A DNA stretch of 64,000 nucleotides from Clostridia bacterium (GTDB lineage: Bacteria > Bacillota > Clostridia > Christensenellales > SZUA-584), in contig JABGQS010000001.1 of the NCBI GenBank assembly GCA_018648645.1, positions 124,001 to 188,000 on the forward strand. The letters are read 5' to 3'. A program made the translations under genes and the position numbers. Below the pieces are notes generated by a model that was not told the DNA's origin, ran no database searches, and saw only the letters and a list, made by a program, of their open reading frames with translations. Shown here piece after piece: positions 55,166 to 59,943 of this stretch (position 1 is its first letter; each line of letters starts with the position of its first letter).

Positions 55166-55218
55166 TTGACAATGCGTTAAAAGTGCGGTATCATTTGAAC
55201 AGTTGAACAAGTATTCAA
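55166..55218 (+). promoter_or_regulatory. Promoter and operator of the arsR-permease unit
   Basis: TTGACA 55166-55171, 17 bp spacer, TATCAT 55189-55194. Just downstream, TTGAACAAGTATTCAA (55203-55218) is a palindrome with arms TTGAA/TTCAA around six bases, like operators of CzrA/CadC/SmtB sensors, placed to block elongation or initiation. A partial repeat of the left arm (TTTGAACA) overlaps the -10 edge. Confidence 0.78.
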
Positions 55219-55239: not shown

Positions 55240-55569
55240 ATGTTGCGCTGTACACAAGATATTGATATTGAGCCGATAGAAGAGGCAAAAGCGATGCGGA
55301 TTGCCGATTTGCTGAAAGTGTTTGGCGACCCCGGACGCGTACAGATATTGAGCTTGCTAGTCGACAAAGAGGTGTGTGTGTCGCACATTGCCGGGGCGCT
55401 TGGCAAAAGCGTGTCGGCAGTGTCGCATCAGCTCAGCATACTGCGCAGCCACAACATTGTGCGCTTTGTCAGAGACGGCAAAAACACGTATTATACGCTC
55501 GACGACAAGCATGTCGAGGATGTACTCAAATCGGGCATTGAACATATAGACCACATAGATCGCGCATAA
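55240..55569 (+). CDS. ArsR/SmtB family metal-sensing repressor
   Basis: 109-residue winged-helix sensor. Recognition helix region SVSAVSHQLSILRSHNIVRF (about 56-75) is typical. The C-terminal helix has D-x-H-x10-H-x2-H (DKHVEDVLKSGIEHIDH, about 88-104), which is the alpha-5 zinc site of SmtB/CzrA, and the alpha-3 Cys pair of CadC/ArsR is reduced to one Cys (EVCVSH). It therefore most likely senses Zn(II) or Co(II). GGGAGG precedes the start; the permease gene begins 13 bp after it. Confidence 0.92.
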   Translation: MLRCTQDIDIEPIEEAKAMRIADLLKVFGDPGRVQILSLLVDKEVCVSHIAGALGKSVSAVSHQLSILRSHNIVRFVRDGKNTYYTLDDKHVEDVLKSGIEHIDHIDRA

Positions 55570-55582
55570 GAAAGGAAAGTAA

Positions 55583-56896
55583 ATGAACTATATTGAAGTA
55601 TTTCTAGATGCATTTCTGGATGTATTTTTGGATATGTCGCTGTATATGCTTATAGGAATGGTGCTAACGGGCGTGCTTTCTGTTGTGATGAAAAAGCAGA
55701 TGGTGGCAAAGCACCTAGGGAAAAATGCGCGAGTGCCCGCGGTTAAGGCGGCGGCTTTTGGGGTACCGCTGCCGTTGTGTTCGTGCGGCGTGCTGCCAAC
55801 AACGGTATATCTTAGCCAAAACGGGGCTTCGACCAGCGCGGTGATGTCGTTCTTGATATCGACACCGCAGACGGGGGTCGATTCTATTATTGCCACGTTT
55901 GGTATGATGGGCGTTGTGTTTGCTGTATATCGACCGGTTGTCGCGTTCATATCGGGCGTTGTCGGTGGCAGTTTGATTCAAAAAATTGCGGGAAACAAAA
56001 GGATCGAGGATTCGCAGGAAGCGCTGGATGCGGAGTGCGAGGAATTCGGGAACTGTTGCGATGAAAATAGTTGCGAGATTGGGCAGGGTGCTAATGCAGC
56101 GGTCGAGCCGAAACTATCGCTGTCAGAGAAACTTAAAAAAATGTTTAATTATGCGTTTGTCGAGTTTGTGGACGATATTGCGCTGCACTTTGTTGTCGGC
56201 GTGATTATCGCGGCGCTGATTACGATTATCATACCGACAGGGTTTTTCGAGAGCTTGAATATAAGCTCGGGTATACTTGCGATGTTGGTGATGCTGGTGA
56301 TTGGGCTGCCGATGTACATATGCTCGACCTCATCGATTCCCATCGCGCTTGTGCTGATGGCAAAGGGAATCAGCCCGGGCGCAGCGTTTGTGTTTCTGTT
56401 TGCGGGACCGGCGACTAACGCGGCATCGCTTGCGGTGCTTGCTAAATCGCTAGGTAAAAAGACGGTGGCTGTGTATCTTGCGATAACGGCAGTTTCTGCG
56501 ATCGGGTTTGGACTGCTGCTGGACGGCCTTATCGGATGGTTCTCGCTGCCGATGCCGGATATTTTGAGCGATACAATGGCGCATGGTACAAACTGGCTGC
56601 AAATAGTGACGGGCGTGATTTTCGGCGGGGTGCTGATAAGAAGCCTGGTTATGCGCGTGGTAAGGAAGATTAGAGCGAAAAGGGACAAAGCAAAGGAGAA
56701 TGTTATGGAACTAAGTATTGAAGGCATGAGCTGTGAGCATTGTGCAAAGAGGGTGACGCAGGCGCTTGAGAATATTGGCGGCGTTGTTTCGGTCAGTGTG
56801 GACGTAAAAGAAGGTAAAGCGTATGTGCAGGGAGAAGATATAGATATGGCAGCTATGAAGCAAGCTGTAGAAGATGCAGGTTATGATGTGAAATAA
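55583..56896 (+). CDS. SO_0444-type Cu/Zn efflux permease with fused C-terminal HMA domain
   Basis: 437-residue membrane permease (PF03773, ArsP-like) with about eight to ten helices. The signature PLPLCSCGVLPTTVYL (about 62-77) and its second-half counterpart PMYICSTSSIPIALVL (about 240) are present. A Cys-rich cytoplasmic loop (ECEEFGNCCDENSCEIG, about 152-168) could bind metal. The last 63 residues are a heavy-metal-associated domain with GMSCEHC. An AAAGGAG site six bases before an in-frame ATG at 56705 could give this domain as a separate protein. With the zinc-site ArsR upstream, metal efflux is likely; metal identity is inferred. Confidence 0.9.
   Translation: MNYIEVFLDAFLDVFLDMSLYMLIGMVLTGVLSVVMKKQMVAKHLGKNARVPAVKAAAFGVPLPLCSCGVLPTTVYLSQNGASTSAVMSFLISTPQTGVDSIIATFGMMGVVFAVYRPVVAFISGVVGGSLIQKIAGNKRIEDSQEALDAECEEFGNCCDENSCEIGQGANAAVEPKLSLSEKLKKMFNYAFVEFVDDIALHFVVGVIIAALITIIIPTGFFESLNISSGILAMLVMLVIGLPMYICSTSSIPIALVLMAKGISPGAAFVFLFAGPATNAASLAVLAKSLGKKTVAVYLAITAVSAIGFGLLLDGLIGWFSLPMPDILSDTMAHGTNWLQIVTGVIFGGVLIRSLVMRVVRKIRAKRDKAKENVMELSIEGMSCEHCAKRVTQALENIGGVVSVSVDVKEGKAYVQGEDIDMAAMKQAVEDAGYDVK
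56705..56896 (+). CDS. Possible internal start: free 63-residue metallochaperone (CopZ-like)
   Basis: In frame with the permease, ATG 56705 is preceded by AAAGGAG at 56692-56698 with six-base spacing, as good as any start in the window. The product (MELSIEGMSCEHC..., betaalphabetabetaalphabeta HMA fold) is a complete CopZ-like chaperone. It is either an alternative product of the same mRNA or the scar of a fusion between a permease gene and a chaperone gene. Confidence 0.5.
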   Translation: MELSIEGMSCEHCAKRVTQALENIGGVVSVSVDVKEGKAYVQGEDIDMAAMKQAVEDAGYDVK

Positions 56897-56905
56897 GGTG
56901 AAGCA

Positions 56906-58075
56906 ATGAGAAACACTACAGTGTATCCCGGCAGCGCAAACGGCGTCGTGACAGCGCCGAGCTCGCTTGACGAAGCGTTGTCTGCAATTGTGCTTGCGGC
57001 GATTACCAGGACGAGCGTCAGAGGAGCGGGCAGCAGCGTTGATACCATTTCGATGTTCAATGGTTTGTTTGCGATGGGCGCAAAGTTTCGTCAGCAAGAG
57101 GATGTCGTGACGTTTTATACAGCGCCGAAGAAGGGCAGCGCTAATATCGAATGCACACACAAAGTTTTGGTGTTTCTTCTGCCGTTGTGCATCGCGCTTG
57201 GCGGCGAGTACACGTTCTTAGGTGAGTTTGACAGCCATATTATTGCCGGACTTAAGAGTCTTGATATCGATTGGTCGGTAAGCGAGAAAGGCGTAACGAT
57301 ACGCTCAAATCGGCAAAACCGAGATACTGCACTGGAGGACGAAACGTTTGCGGCCGGATTTATGCTGACGCTTCCCTTGAATGAGAGTGCCAAGCTTTCG
57401 TGCAGCAGCGGCAAGAAGTTTGCGGAGCTGACAGTGGCAATCATGCAAGACTTTGGGTACAGGCTTTTCGACCAAGAGGGATATTCGATAGCAAAGCACC
57501 GAAAAGTTGACACGAATTATATTTACAGCGTTGGCGGAGATTATGGCAAATCGGCTTATTTGCTGCTTGCCGGATTTTTGTCGGGCGAGGTTGGCGTGAC
57601 GGGGCTGCTTGCGGGTTCGATGCAAAGTGGGCGCAGCGTTACAGATGAGTTCAAAGATTTGAAGCTGCGCGTGAACGAGATGAACGGCGCGGTGTTTGCC
57701 AAAAAAAGCCGCATTGGCGAGGCAGTAATCGATGTGAGTGGCATGGCAGAGCCGATTGTCGCTTTGGTGCTTGCGTGTTTTTGCAAAGGTAAATGTGTGA
57801 TAAAAAACGCTGAGAAACTATCGGACGAGAGAAGAGAAGAGTTTGACATAACGGCAAAAGCGCTGCAAAGCATTGGCGCTGACATTATAAAGATTGGGCA
57901 GGAGCATTTTATTACCGGCAGCAAGAAGCTGTTTGGCGGCAATGTGAATGCTCACGGCAGCCAAAACATTGCAATGGCGCTGGCAGCAGCCGGGATAGTC
58001 AGCGAAATTGGTGTCACGCTAAGTAACGCGCCGTCATTGGATGTGTTGCAAAGGCTTGGTGTTACGATTCAGTAA
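56906..58075 (+). CDS. EPSP-synthase-like protein lacking catalytic motifs
   Basis: 389 residues, related to AroA (usual length about 425-430) by the inside-out alpha/beta barrel pattern. VGGDYGKSAYLLLAGFLSG (about 209-227) matches the GDxSxAAxF region, KLSDERREEFDITAKALQSI resembles the ESDR region, and NIAMALAAAGI matches the end of DHRIAMA. But the start lacks GSKS (PGSANGVVTAPSS), the GNAGT loop is replaced (ECTHKVLVF), and DHR is replaced by HGS. It begins nine bases after the metal permease, with AAGGTGA, and is the third gene of that unit. It is probably not a working EPSP synthase; a role is unknown. Confidence 0.75.
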   Translation: MRNTTVYPGSANGVVTAPSSLDEALSAIVLAAITRTSVRGAGSSVDTISMFNGLFAMGAKFRQQEDVVTFYTAPKKGSANIECTHKVLVFLLPLCIALGGEYTFLGEFDSHIIAGLKSLDIDWSVSEKGVTIRSNRQNRDTALEDETFAAGFMLTLPLNESAKLSCSSGKKFAELTVAIMQDFGYRLFDQEGYSIAKHRKVDTNYIYSVGGDYGKSAYLLLAGFLSGEVGVTGLLAGSMQSGRSVTDEFKDLKLRVNEMNGAVFAKKSRIGEAVIDVSGMAEPIVALVLACFCKGKCVIKNAEKLSDERREEFDITAKALQSIGADIIKIGQEHFITGSKKLFGGNVNAHGSQNIAMALAAAGIVSEIGVTLSNAPSLDVLQRLGVTIQ

Positions 58076-58207: not shown

Positions 58208-58236
58208 TTGACAACGCGCTGTGAATGGGGTACAAT
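58208..58236 (+). promoter_or_regulatory. Strong promoter (TTGACA-17-TACAAT) without a clear gene
   Basis: TTGACA 58208-58213, 17 bp spacer, TACAAT 58231-58236. Transcription would begin near 58243 and meet a terminator at 58397. Confidence 0.75.
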
Positions 58237-58242
58237 TATCTT

Positions 58243-58397
58243 AATTGAATAAGGAATAAGCGATATTTATACTATATTTATACTACTATTTGAGCTAATG
58301 GCGACCACTTTCGAAAGGAGTGCGCGCAGAGCATGAAGTCTAAGGTCTTTTGGCTATGGCGGTTCGGCTGTCTCGTTGGTATGAGGCGGCTTTTTTT
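58243..58397 (+). ncRNA. Candidate small RNA of about 155 nt (or 33-codon peptide)
   Basis: Bounded by a consensus promoter and a terminator. A hairpin CACTTT-CGAAA-GGAGTG (58306-58322) lies in the middle and hides an AAAGGAG sequence. A 33-codon frame starts at ATG 58333 (MKSKVFWLWRFG...) and runs through the terminator to 58434, which argues against it as a normal gene. The downstream gene at 58603 has its own promoter, so this need not be a leader. It resembles no riboswitch class I know. Confidence 0.5.
58367..58397 (+). terminator. Terminator of the candidate small RNA
   Basis: Eight-pair stem GCTGTCTC/GAGGCGGC (two G-U pairs, 58367-58374 and 58383-58390), eight-base loop, then seven T. 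Confidence 0.7.
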
Positions 58398-58602: not shown

Positions 58603-59943
58603 ATGAATAACAAACGCATACTCAACTACTCTATGGTTGCAGCTTACACGATACTGCTTATGATTGTTGCGGCGATTGTCGAGCTTGCGCTCTTTAAAGT
58701 TGCGGCGCCGGACGGCTTGATAGCAATCAGCGAAGGGCTTGCTGAAACGGGCTTCTCGGTGACAGTTATCACCGTGTCGATATTGGCTGTGATTACGAAC
58801 ATCAGCGAAAGGCGCTTTTTTGGTGTTAAAGCAGGGGAGTATCTGAAGTTTAGACGCAGGAAACTGAGCCCCGGGTTCTACGATGTGCTGATTATAATCG
58901 TGCTTGTCGGAGCTTTGCAATACGTTGCGCTGGCGGCAGATTTTCGATTTGCGGCGGCGGTGATGTTCCTTGAGATTATCGCGCTGCTGATTGTGCAGAT
59001 TCGGTGGGGGTTGGGAATCGCGTTTTTCTATTACGGTAAAGAGAGGGAGATCCGAGCTTTCTTTATCGACGAGATTAAAGATAACTTAAAAATAGTCGCG
59101 GATGAAAAGACGGGTCAAAGAAAAATCGACCGTGCACAGCAAGCTGTGGGATCCAGAATTGACAACTTGTTTACGCACACAAAAAATGCGGTGGGCAGGC
59201 AGGAGAGTTCGCAAATACAGCAGAATCTGAACATGATGGCGAACATTTTGGATTTGCTTTTGGACAACAGGTATCAGAGCGTGTGGCACAATTATGAAAC
59301 GCGCGTGGATTATCTTATATCGTCGATATTGCCGGACGAAGAGCTTGGAGAGTATGCGAGCAGCGCGCTGCTTAAGATGACGGATATTATTTTGGCGACA
59401 AAGGAATCGGGCGACAAGCAGATTGCAAAGAACTGTGATTTTGACCAGAGCCGAAATCGGGCGTACAAGATGGTGACTTATGCTTCTGCTATGCTGCTGC
59501 AAAGCATGTTCGACAAGCAGATTTTTTATAAGCTGGCAGCAGTAAAGATATACGGTATCGACAATGCTGAGCGAAAGGTAAGCAGGTACGCGCTGTACGC
59601 CGACCAGTTTGCAGAGCATGTGGCGGCAAGCAAACACCTTGAAGAAATAAACGCAATGGTGACGACCAGCCTTCGTAAGCTGGCACCGCTGTGTTTTGCA
59701 AACGGCAAAGCGACAGATACGGCGATATACTTTAGCTTGGTTGTGCGGGCGCTCGAGAAAAACGGCGTGCCGACAGATGCGCTGTGGGAAGAGGCGAATA
59801 ATCACGAGGAAGAGAACGGGAAGCAGAGTGCAGGCGTGTGTATGCTCAAAAGCGTACACGATGTGCAAAACGGCGATGAGCTGAGTGACGATGAAAAGAA
59901 AACGGTAGAGAGTTTTACAAAGCTGATTGAAGCGCATGAGTAA
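58603..59943 (+). CDS. Four-helix membrane protein with large cytoplasmic domain, function unknown
   Basis: 446 residues, not recognised. Four membrane helices are predicted at about 10-32, 44-64, 88-108 and 110-135; the rest (about 145-446) is soluble, helical and charged, probably cytoplasmic, without cofactor or nucleotide motifs. ISERRFFGVKAGEYLKFRRR (about 67-86) forms a basic loop between helices 2 and 3. AGGGGAG precedes the start. It has its own promoter and is followed 84 bp on by the nuclease gene. It might be a sensor or scaffold, but nothing in the sequence proves it. Confidence 0.8.
   Translation: MNNKRILNYSMVAAYTILLMIVAAIVELALFKVAAPDGLIAISEGLAETGFSVTVITVSILAVITNISERRFFGVKAGEYLKFRRRKLSPGFYDVLIIIVLVGALQYVALAADFRFAAAVMFLEIIALLIVQIRWGLGIAFFYYGKEREIRAFFIDEIKDNLKIVADEKTGQRKIDRAQQAVGSRIDNLFTHTKNAVGRQESSQIQQNLNMMANILDLLLDNRYQSVWHNYETRVDYLISSILPDEELGEYASSALLKMTDIILATKESGDKQIAKNCDFDQSRNRAYKMVTYASAMLLQSMFDKQIFYKLAAVKIYGIDNAERKVSRYALYADQFAEHVAASKHLEEINAMVTTSLRKLAPLCFANGKATDTAIYFSLVVRALEKNGVPTDALWEEANNHEEENGKQSAGVCMLKSVHDVQNGDELSDDEKKTVESFTKLIEAHE

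Follow-up and report, generated by a model that had tools for sequence, protein, structure and literature searches.

Why does a gene that resembles EPSP synthase (AroA), and whose product appears to have lost its active site, lie behind a metal-efflux permease and its repressor? The question is raised by the ORF at 56906–58075 (+) of the window, by which we mean the whole 64-kb stretch of DNA analysed here, from an uncultured clostridial bacterium. The ORF runs exactly from an ATG at 56906 to a stop codon ending at 58075 and encodes 389 amino acids. A first-pass annotation of the DNA had recognized the AroA family pattern in it and proposed a comparison with AroA and MurA profiles. PF00275, the EPSP synthase family, matches over its full length (residues 11–373 against positions 7–401 of 417) with an E-value of 5.2e-19 and 68.7 bits (cut-off 22.8), which bears the pattern out. 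The aroA model TIGR01356 matches weakly, at 89.3 bits against an equivalog cut-off of 287.25, and the murA model reaches 27.3 bits against 392.7. TIGR01356 gives 129.3 bits for the ortholog described below and 375.6 bits for the genome's own AroA, to which the ORF product is 24% identical. The family match and the ortholog rule out a chance ORF or a reading-frame artefact.

Solved EPSP synthases were matched with a best E-value of 1.5e-11 by the single sequence and 1.2e-25 by a two-sequence profile that included the ortholog. A structure model from the two sequences has a mean pLDDT of 51.8, with residues 20–130 or so at 70–90. Using this low-confidence model, Foldseek ranked EPSP synthases first (E-values down to 2.7e-10, TM-score only about 0.35), and MurA was also among the matches, again with low TM-scores. 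The EPSP-synthase fold is assigned mainly from the sequence.

The ORF is the third gene of a tight cluster. A promoter-like site, TTGACA-17-TATCAT, identified by consensus match only (11 of 12 positions), is located at 55166–55194 (+) before the ArsR gene. Just 3' of it, at 55204–55217 (+), lies a sequence with the pattern of an ArsR/SmtB operator core, TGAACAAGTATTCA (TGAA-N6-TTCA). This site is the sole one of its kind in the window, in which about one is expected by chance, and a core of the same type, TGAACAAACGTTCA, occupies nearly the same place 5' of the ortholog's ArsR gene. The repressor gene at 55240–55569 (+) encodes an ArsR/SmtB-family protein of 109 amino acids (NF033788, 81.3 bits, cut-off 55). 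This helix-turn-helix protein carries the alpha-5 type motif D-x-H-x10-H-x2-H (DKHVEDVLKSGIEHIDH), read in the sequences of the window and of the ortholog's genome (G001), in which His replaces the final Glu of the defining DxHx10Hx2E (PMC8790569). Alpha-5 sensors answer Zn and similar ions, and their usual operators are 12-2-12 repeats near the start site (PMC8790569). We infer that the window ArsR senses Zn(II) or a similar ion.

The second gene, at 55583–56896 (+), encodes an SO_0444-family Cu/Zn efflux permease of the ArsP_1 family (437 amino acids; NF033936, 353 bits, cut-off 300). Its C-terminus holds an HMA domain with a GMSCEHC motif (56711–56887 (+); PF00403, 2.6e-13, residues 377–435). 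Both neighbors thus agree with the first-pass reading, an ArsR sensor and a Cu/Zn-type permease. Under Zn or Cu stress, Shewanella depends on SO_0444 for growth (PMC3219624). In Nitratiruptor, Cd and Cu induce another member of the family (PMC10092412). The gaps are 13 bp between the ArsR and permease genes and 9 bp between the permease and EPSP-like genes, and the ribosome-site-like sequence AAGGTG precedes the ATG of the latter. This spacing suggests that the three genes form a single transcript.

Further downstream, we notice a c-di-GMP-I riboswitch at 58290–58375 (+) (RF01051, 37.2 bits, gathering cut-off 35), with a promoter-like site at 58208–58236 and an overlapping terminator-like hairpin at 58366–58391. 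The riboswitch precedes a gene (58603–59943) whose product of 446 amino acids has hydrophobic segments at its N-terminal end and matches no Pfam family.

To locate the losses, we aligned the EPSP-like protein and its ortholog with 33 AroAs from the window genome and its relatives. Fifty-two columns are conserved in at least 95% of the AroAs; 18 of them were put to the substrate or catalytic site and 34 elsewhere. The 18-position set is our own choice from E. coli EPSPS, in the numbering of which we take the site to include Lys22, Ser23, Arg27, Arg124, Ser169–Gln171, Asp313, Lys340–Glu341, Arg344, His385–Arg386 and Lys411. Lys22, Arg124 and Lys411 belong to the PEP site of E. coli EPSPS (PMC3411725). 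The window protein retains 0 of the 18 active-site positions, whereas it retains 18 of the 34 others (Fisher p 5.5e-5 with this author-chosen set). The ortholog retains 3 of 18 (the equivalents of Arg27, Tyr200 and Arg386) and 20 of 34. Loss thus falls mainly on the active site, and it has gone further in the window lineage.

The first-pass annotation had claimed the loss of the GSKS, GNAGT and DHR motifs, to be abandoned if catalytic residues aligned; none aligns in the window protein. LD stands where AroA has its KS loop, part of the N-A-G-T loop is missing and DHR has become SQN. SSQ is replaced by DET and KESDR by ERREE, and RPI is deleted. The PEP-holding residues Lys22, Arg124 and Lys411 are lost, as are Arg344 and Arg386. 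What is kept relative to AroA are structural glycines and hydrophobic blocks. The product is probably a non-catalytic AroA paralog, that is, a pseudoenzyme.

The window genome (G000, 95% complete) contains three members of the family: one MurA, one intact AroA and the ORF studied here. A true aroA elsewhere, for which the first-pass annotation advised a search, lies within an aroB-aroA-aroC-pheA operon, away from the metal-efflux cluster. With this separate gene, the cell does not need the EPSP-like protein for chorismate. Given the intact aro operon and the absent active site, we reject the reading of the ORF product as an active or second AroA. On a separate point, we observed only one MurA in this genome, and three MurA-type genes, or nearly, in each of the related genomes G001, G002 and G004; the lone MurA may reflect a real loss or the incomplete assembly.

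One ortholog of the EPSP-like protein was found, with 40% identity, in G001, a metagenome-assembled genome of the same family and another genus. By position and sequence, its locus is JAQTSP010000077.1 of Eubacteriales bacterium STB_2 (L057). The gene order is common to both: glycerate kinase on the opposite strand, ArsR, permease and EPSP-like gene. Linkage to the permease, the lack of which in relatives would have told against the first-pass reading, is thus kept, together with ArsR, in the only relative in which the gene was found. ArsR, permease and glycerate kinase are 62–65% identical between the two genomes, and the EPSP-like protein changes at roughly twice the rate of its partners in the operon. 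In the tree, the two EPSP-like proteins group together with full support (100/100) at the end of a long stem, the attachment of which among the AroAs the tree does not resolve. A true AroA was not seen in the G001 assembly, but this assembly is 83% complete and its aroC contig ends at that point, so that the absence carries little weight. The G001 permease gene (L057:3530-4607) is broken by a run of N, at which the frame changes; this is probably a gap in the scaffold. The gene seems to lack the C-terminal HMA domain.

The search for further carriers covered genomes from the order (396), the class (391) and the phylum (398), as well as viral contigs, plasmids and the GTDB contigs. No further ortholog appeared in these approximately 1,200 sampled genomes; apart from G001, every match examined either was an ordinary AroA or had a score within the range of AroAs. 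The scan of GTDB contigs, with two 8-residue patterns that distant orthologs could escape, returned no other carrier. AroA sequences sought in viral contigs to deepen the alignment were not found there. Within the order, ArsR and permease genes are adjacent in G048 and G008 and separated by two other genes in G146, all with the same operator type as the window and without an EPSP gene, which suggests that this gene was added to the pair. In genus g3 (represented by two species, G002 and G004), neither the permease nor the EPSP-like gene was found, and this joint absence indicates that the EPSP-like gene is dispensable.

A fourth gene extends the locus in relatives. In G001, an 89-aa protein encoded 15 bp 3' of the EPSP-like gene barely passes CM_2 (PF01817; 28–29 bits, cut-off 27). 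Only helix 1 of this chorismate-mutase-like (CM-like) protein is matched, its scores are below every NCBIfam chorismate-mutase cut-off, and the Arg11 equivalent is absent by eye. In G002 and G004, an orthologous ArsR gene (56–58% identity) without the TGAA-N6-TTCA operator stands immediately before a relative of this CM-like gene, after which comes a beta-CASP nuclease gene that is also downstream in the window. These small CM-like proteins (L056:1459-1752 and L073:1471-1758) carry a CAxC motif. A CM-like gene other than pheA was sought in the window genome and not found. The simplest history would be an ancestral ArsR–permease–EPSP-like–CM-like cluster with differing losses, and independent gains may be the alternative.

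Based on these observations, we consider it probable that the ORF encodes a retained AroA-derived pseudoenzyme, captured behind an ArsR/SmtB-controlled efflux permease and made when metal releases the repressor. AroA would have been duplicated, and the copy captured behind the metal-efflux permease in an ancestor of the bacterial family. The copy would then have lost catalysis and been kept, to be produced when metal frees the ArsR repressor from the operator. It may act by binding a ligand or a partner, not by enolpyruvyl transfer. Family membership, active-site loss, the separate AroA, an arrangement of genes and an operator core conserved between two genera, and purifying selection are the parts of this account that are read from sequence.

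As to the specific role, the most likely one, which we hold loosely, is that of an accessory or regulatory partner tying metal stress to the chorismate pathway; we favor it because a CM-like second gene shares the locus in relatives. The first-pass annotation had suggested a non-catalytic or repurposed fold in metal handling. The family, the loss of catalytic residues, the separate AroA and the linkage speak for that suggestion, but no unique metal-ligand motif was found, and the only link to metal is the predicted co-transcription. With the CM-like gene at the locus in relatives, a tie to the aromatic pathway and a direct role in metal handling are equally plausible. We lean slightly, with low confidence, towards a regulatory link to aromatic metabolism. 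That the EPSP-like and CM-like proteins, as two inactive chorismate-enzyme relatives produced along with the efflux permease in a metal-responsive module, would serve as regulatory partners coupling metal stress to aromatic biosynthesis is a speculation that we judge unlikely.

The main rival, which we consider fairly unlikely, is that the AroA copy became a mere passenger of the operon, without function or role and on its way to disappearing. Fast evolution, an active site of which the window lineage retains nothing, the shortened C-terminus of the window protein, the longer window branch (1.85, against 1.29 for the ortholog) and the absence from genus g3 fit such decay. However, the frame is open over 389–406 codons in the two members, and dN (0.64) is well below dS (1.7, saturated; one pairwise estimate), which would be unexpected without constraint. 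Codon positions 1, 2 and 3 differ by 45, 39 and 63%. The low dN and the intact frame point to selection on the protein sequence, and from two members and one comparison we conclude that the gene is under purifying selection. Some blocks show no difference between the two proteins (VGVTGLL, NGAVFAKKSR, GKCVIK and KKLFGG), a further sign of constraint. The GC3 of the gene resembles that of its operon partners in the window genome, which also speaks against the passenger reading.

Three other rivals were weighed. GAPDH modifies a substrate ahead of export by ArsJ, and by analogy the active site might have been rebuilt for another substrate, such as a metal-binding or toxic molecule modified before export. 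The operon link to an efflux permease and the family-specific basic blocks NGAVFAKKSR and KKLFGG would suit this idea, but with all five PEP-site and arginine residues named above lost in the window protein, the family chemistry is hardly retained, and two sequences define no new set of acid, base or nucleophile; we regard it as improbable. Direct metal binding, with the protein as a cytosolic metal buffer or a chaperone of the permease, is more doubtful still. It would agree with the operon link to ArsR, the permease and the HMA domain, and with Cys83, Cys95 and FC-(x3-5)-C (C293/C297 in the window protein) common to both proteins, C297 occurring in 0 of 32 AroAs. On the other hand, Cys83 comes from ordinary AroA, in which 28 of 32 sequences have it, the second Cys pair differs in spacing between the proteins where the alignment is unsure, and the HMA domain already supplies a chaperone-like site. 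We rejected a diagnostic metal-binding Cys motif in the protein, as the cysteines are not diagnostic. An EPSP synthase or MurA that has diverged but still works is hardly credible: the family match exceeds the Pfam cut-off, but the catalytic residues are all absent, the aroA and murA scores are far under their cut-offs, and intact AroA and MurA are present in the genome.

EPSP synthase is an essential enzyme and a herbicide target. The literature that we searched describes no bacterial relative of it that has lost catalysis and yet been kept. The family described here offers a clear case, in which the site is erased, the frame is selected and the place behind metal efflux is kept across two genera. 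Automatic annotation may label such genes aroA. If the CM-like partner is functionally linked, the locus would suggest that metal stress and aromatic metabolism are connected in a way not described so far.

Compared with known systems, the protein is closest to AroA (PF00275, TIGR01356), with which it shares the full-length family match, the structural glycines and the hydrophobic blocks. It differs in lacking the catalytic and substrate-binding residues, in its loop deletions and in its position outside the aro operon under an ArsR/SmtB-type operator. The locus also resembles the regulator–permease pair SO_0443–SO_0444 of Shewanella, of which plain two-gene versions exist in two genomes of the order, whereas the window locus adds an EPSP-like gene (with a CM-like gene in one relative) and its regulator is ArsR-type, not ZntR-type. 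The fourth gene of G001 is similar to type II chorismate mutase (AroQ) in passing the Pfam cut-off, but AroQ contrasts with its helix-1-only match, its missing Arg11 equivalent and its place in an ArsR locus. Rcl1, a protein of this fold class related to RNA 3'-phosphate cyclase, likewise lost catalysis and was kept in a non-enzymatic form. It belongs, however, to another branch of the superfamily and acts in eukaryotic ribosome assembly without a link to metal.
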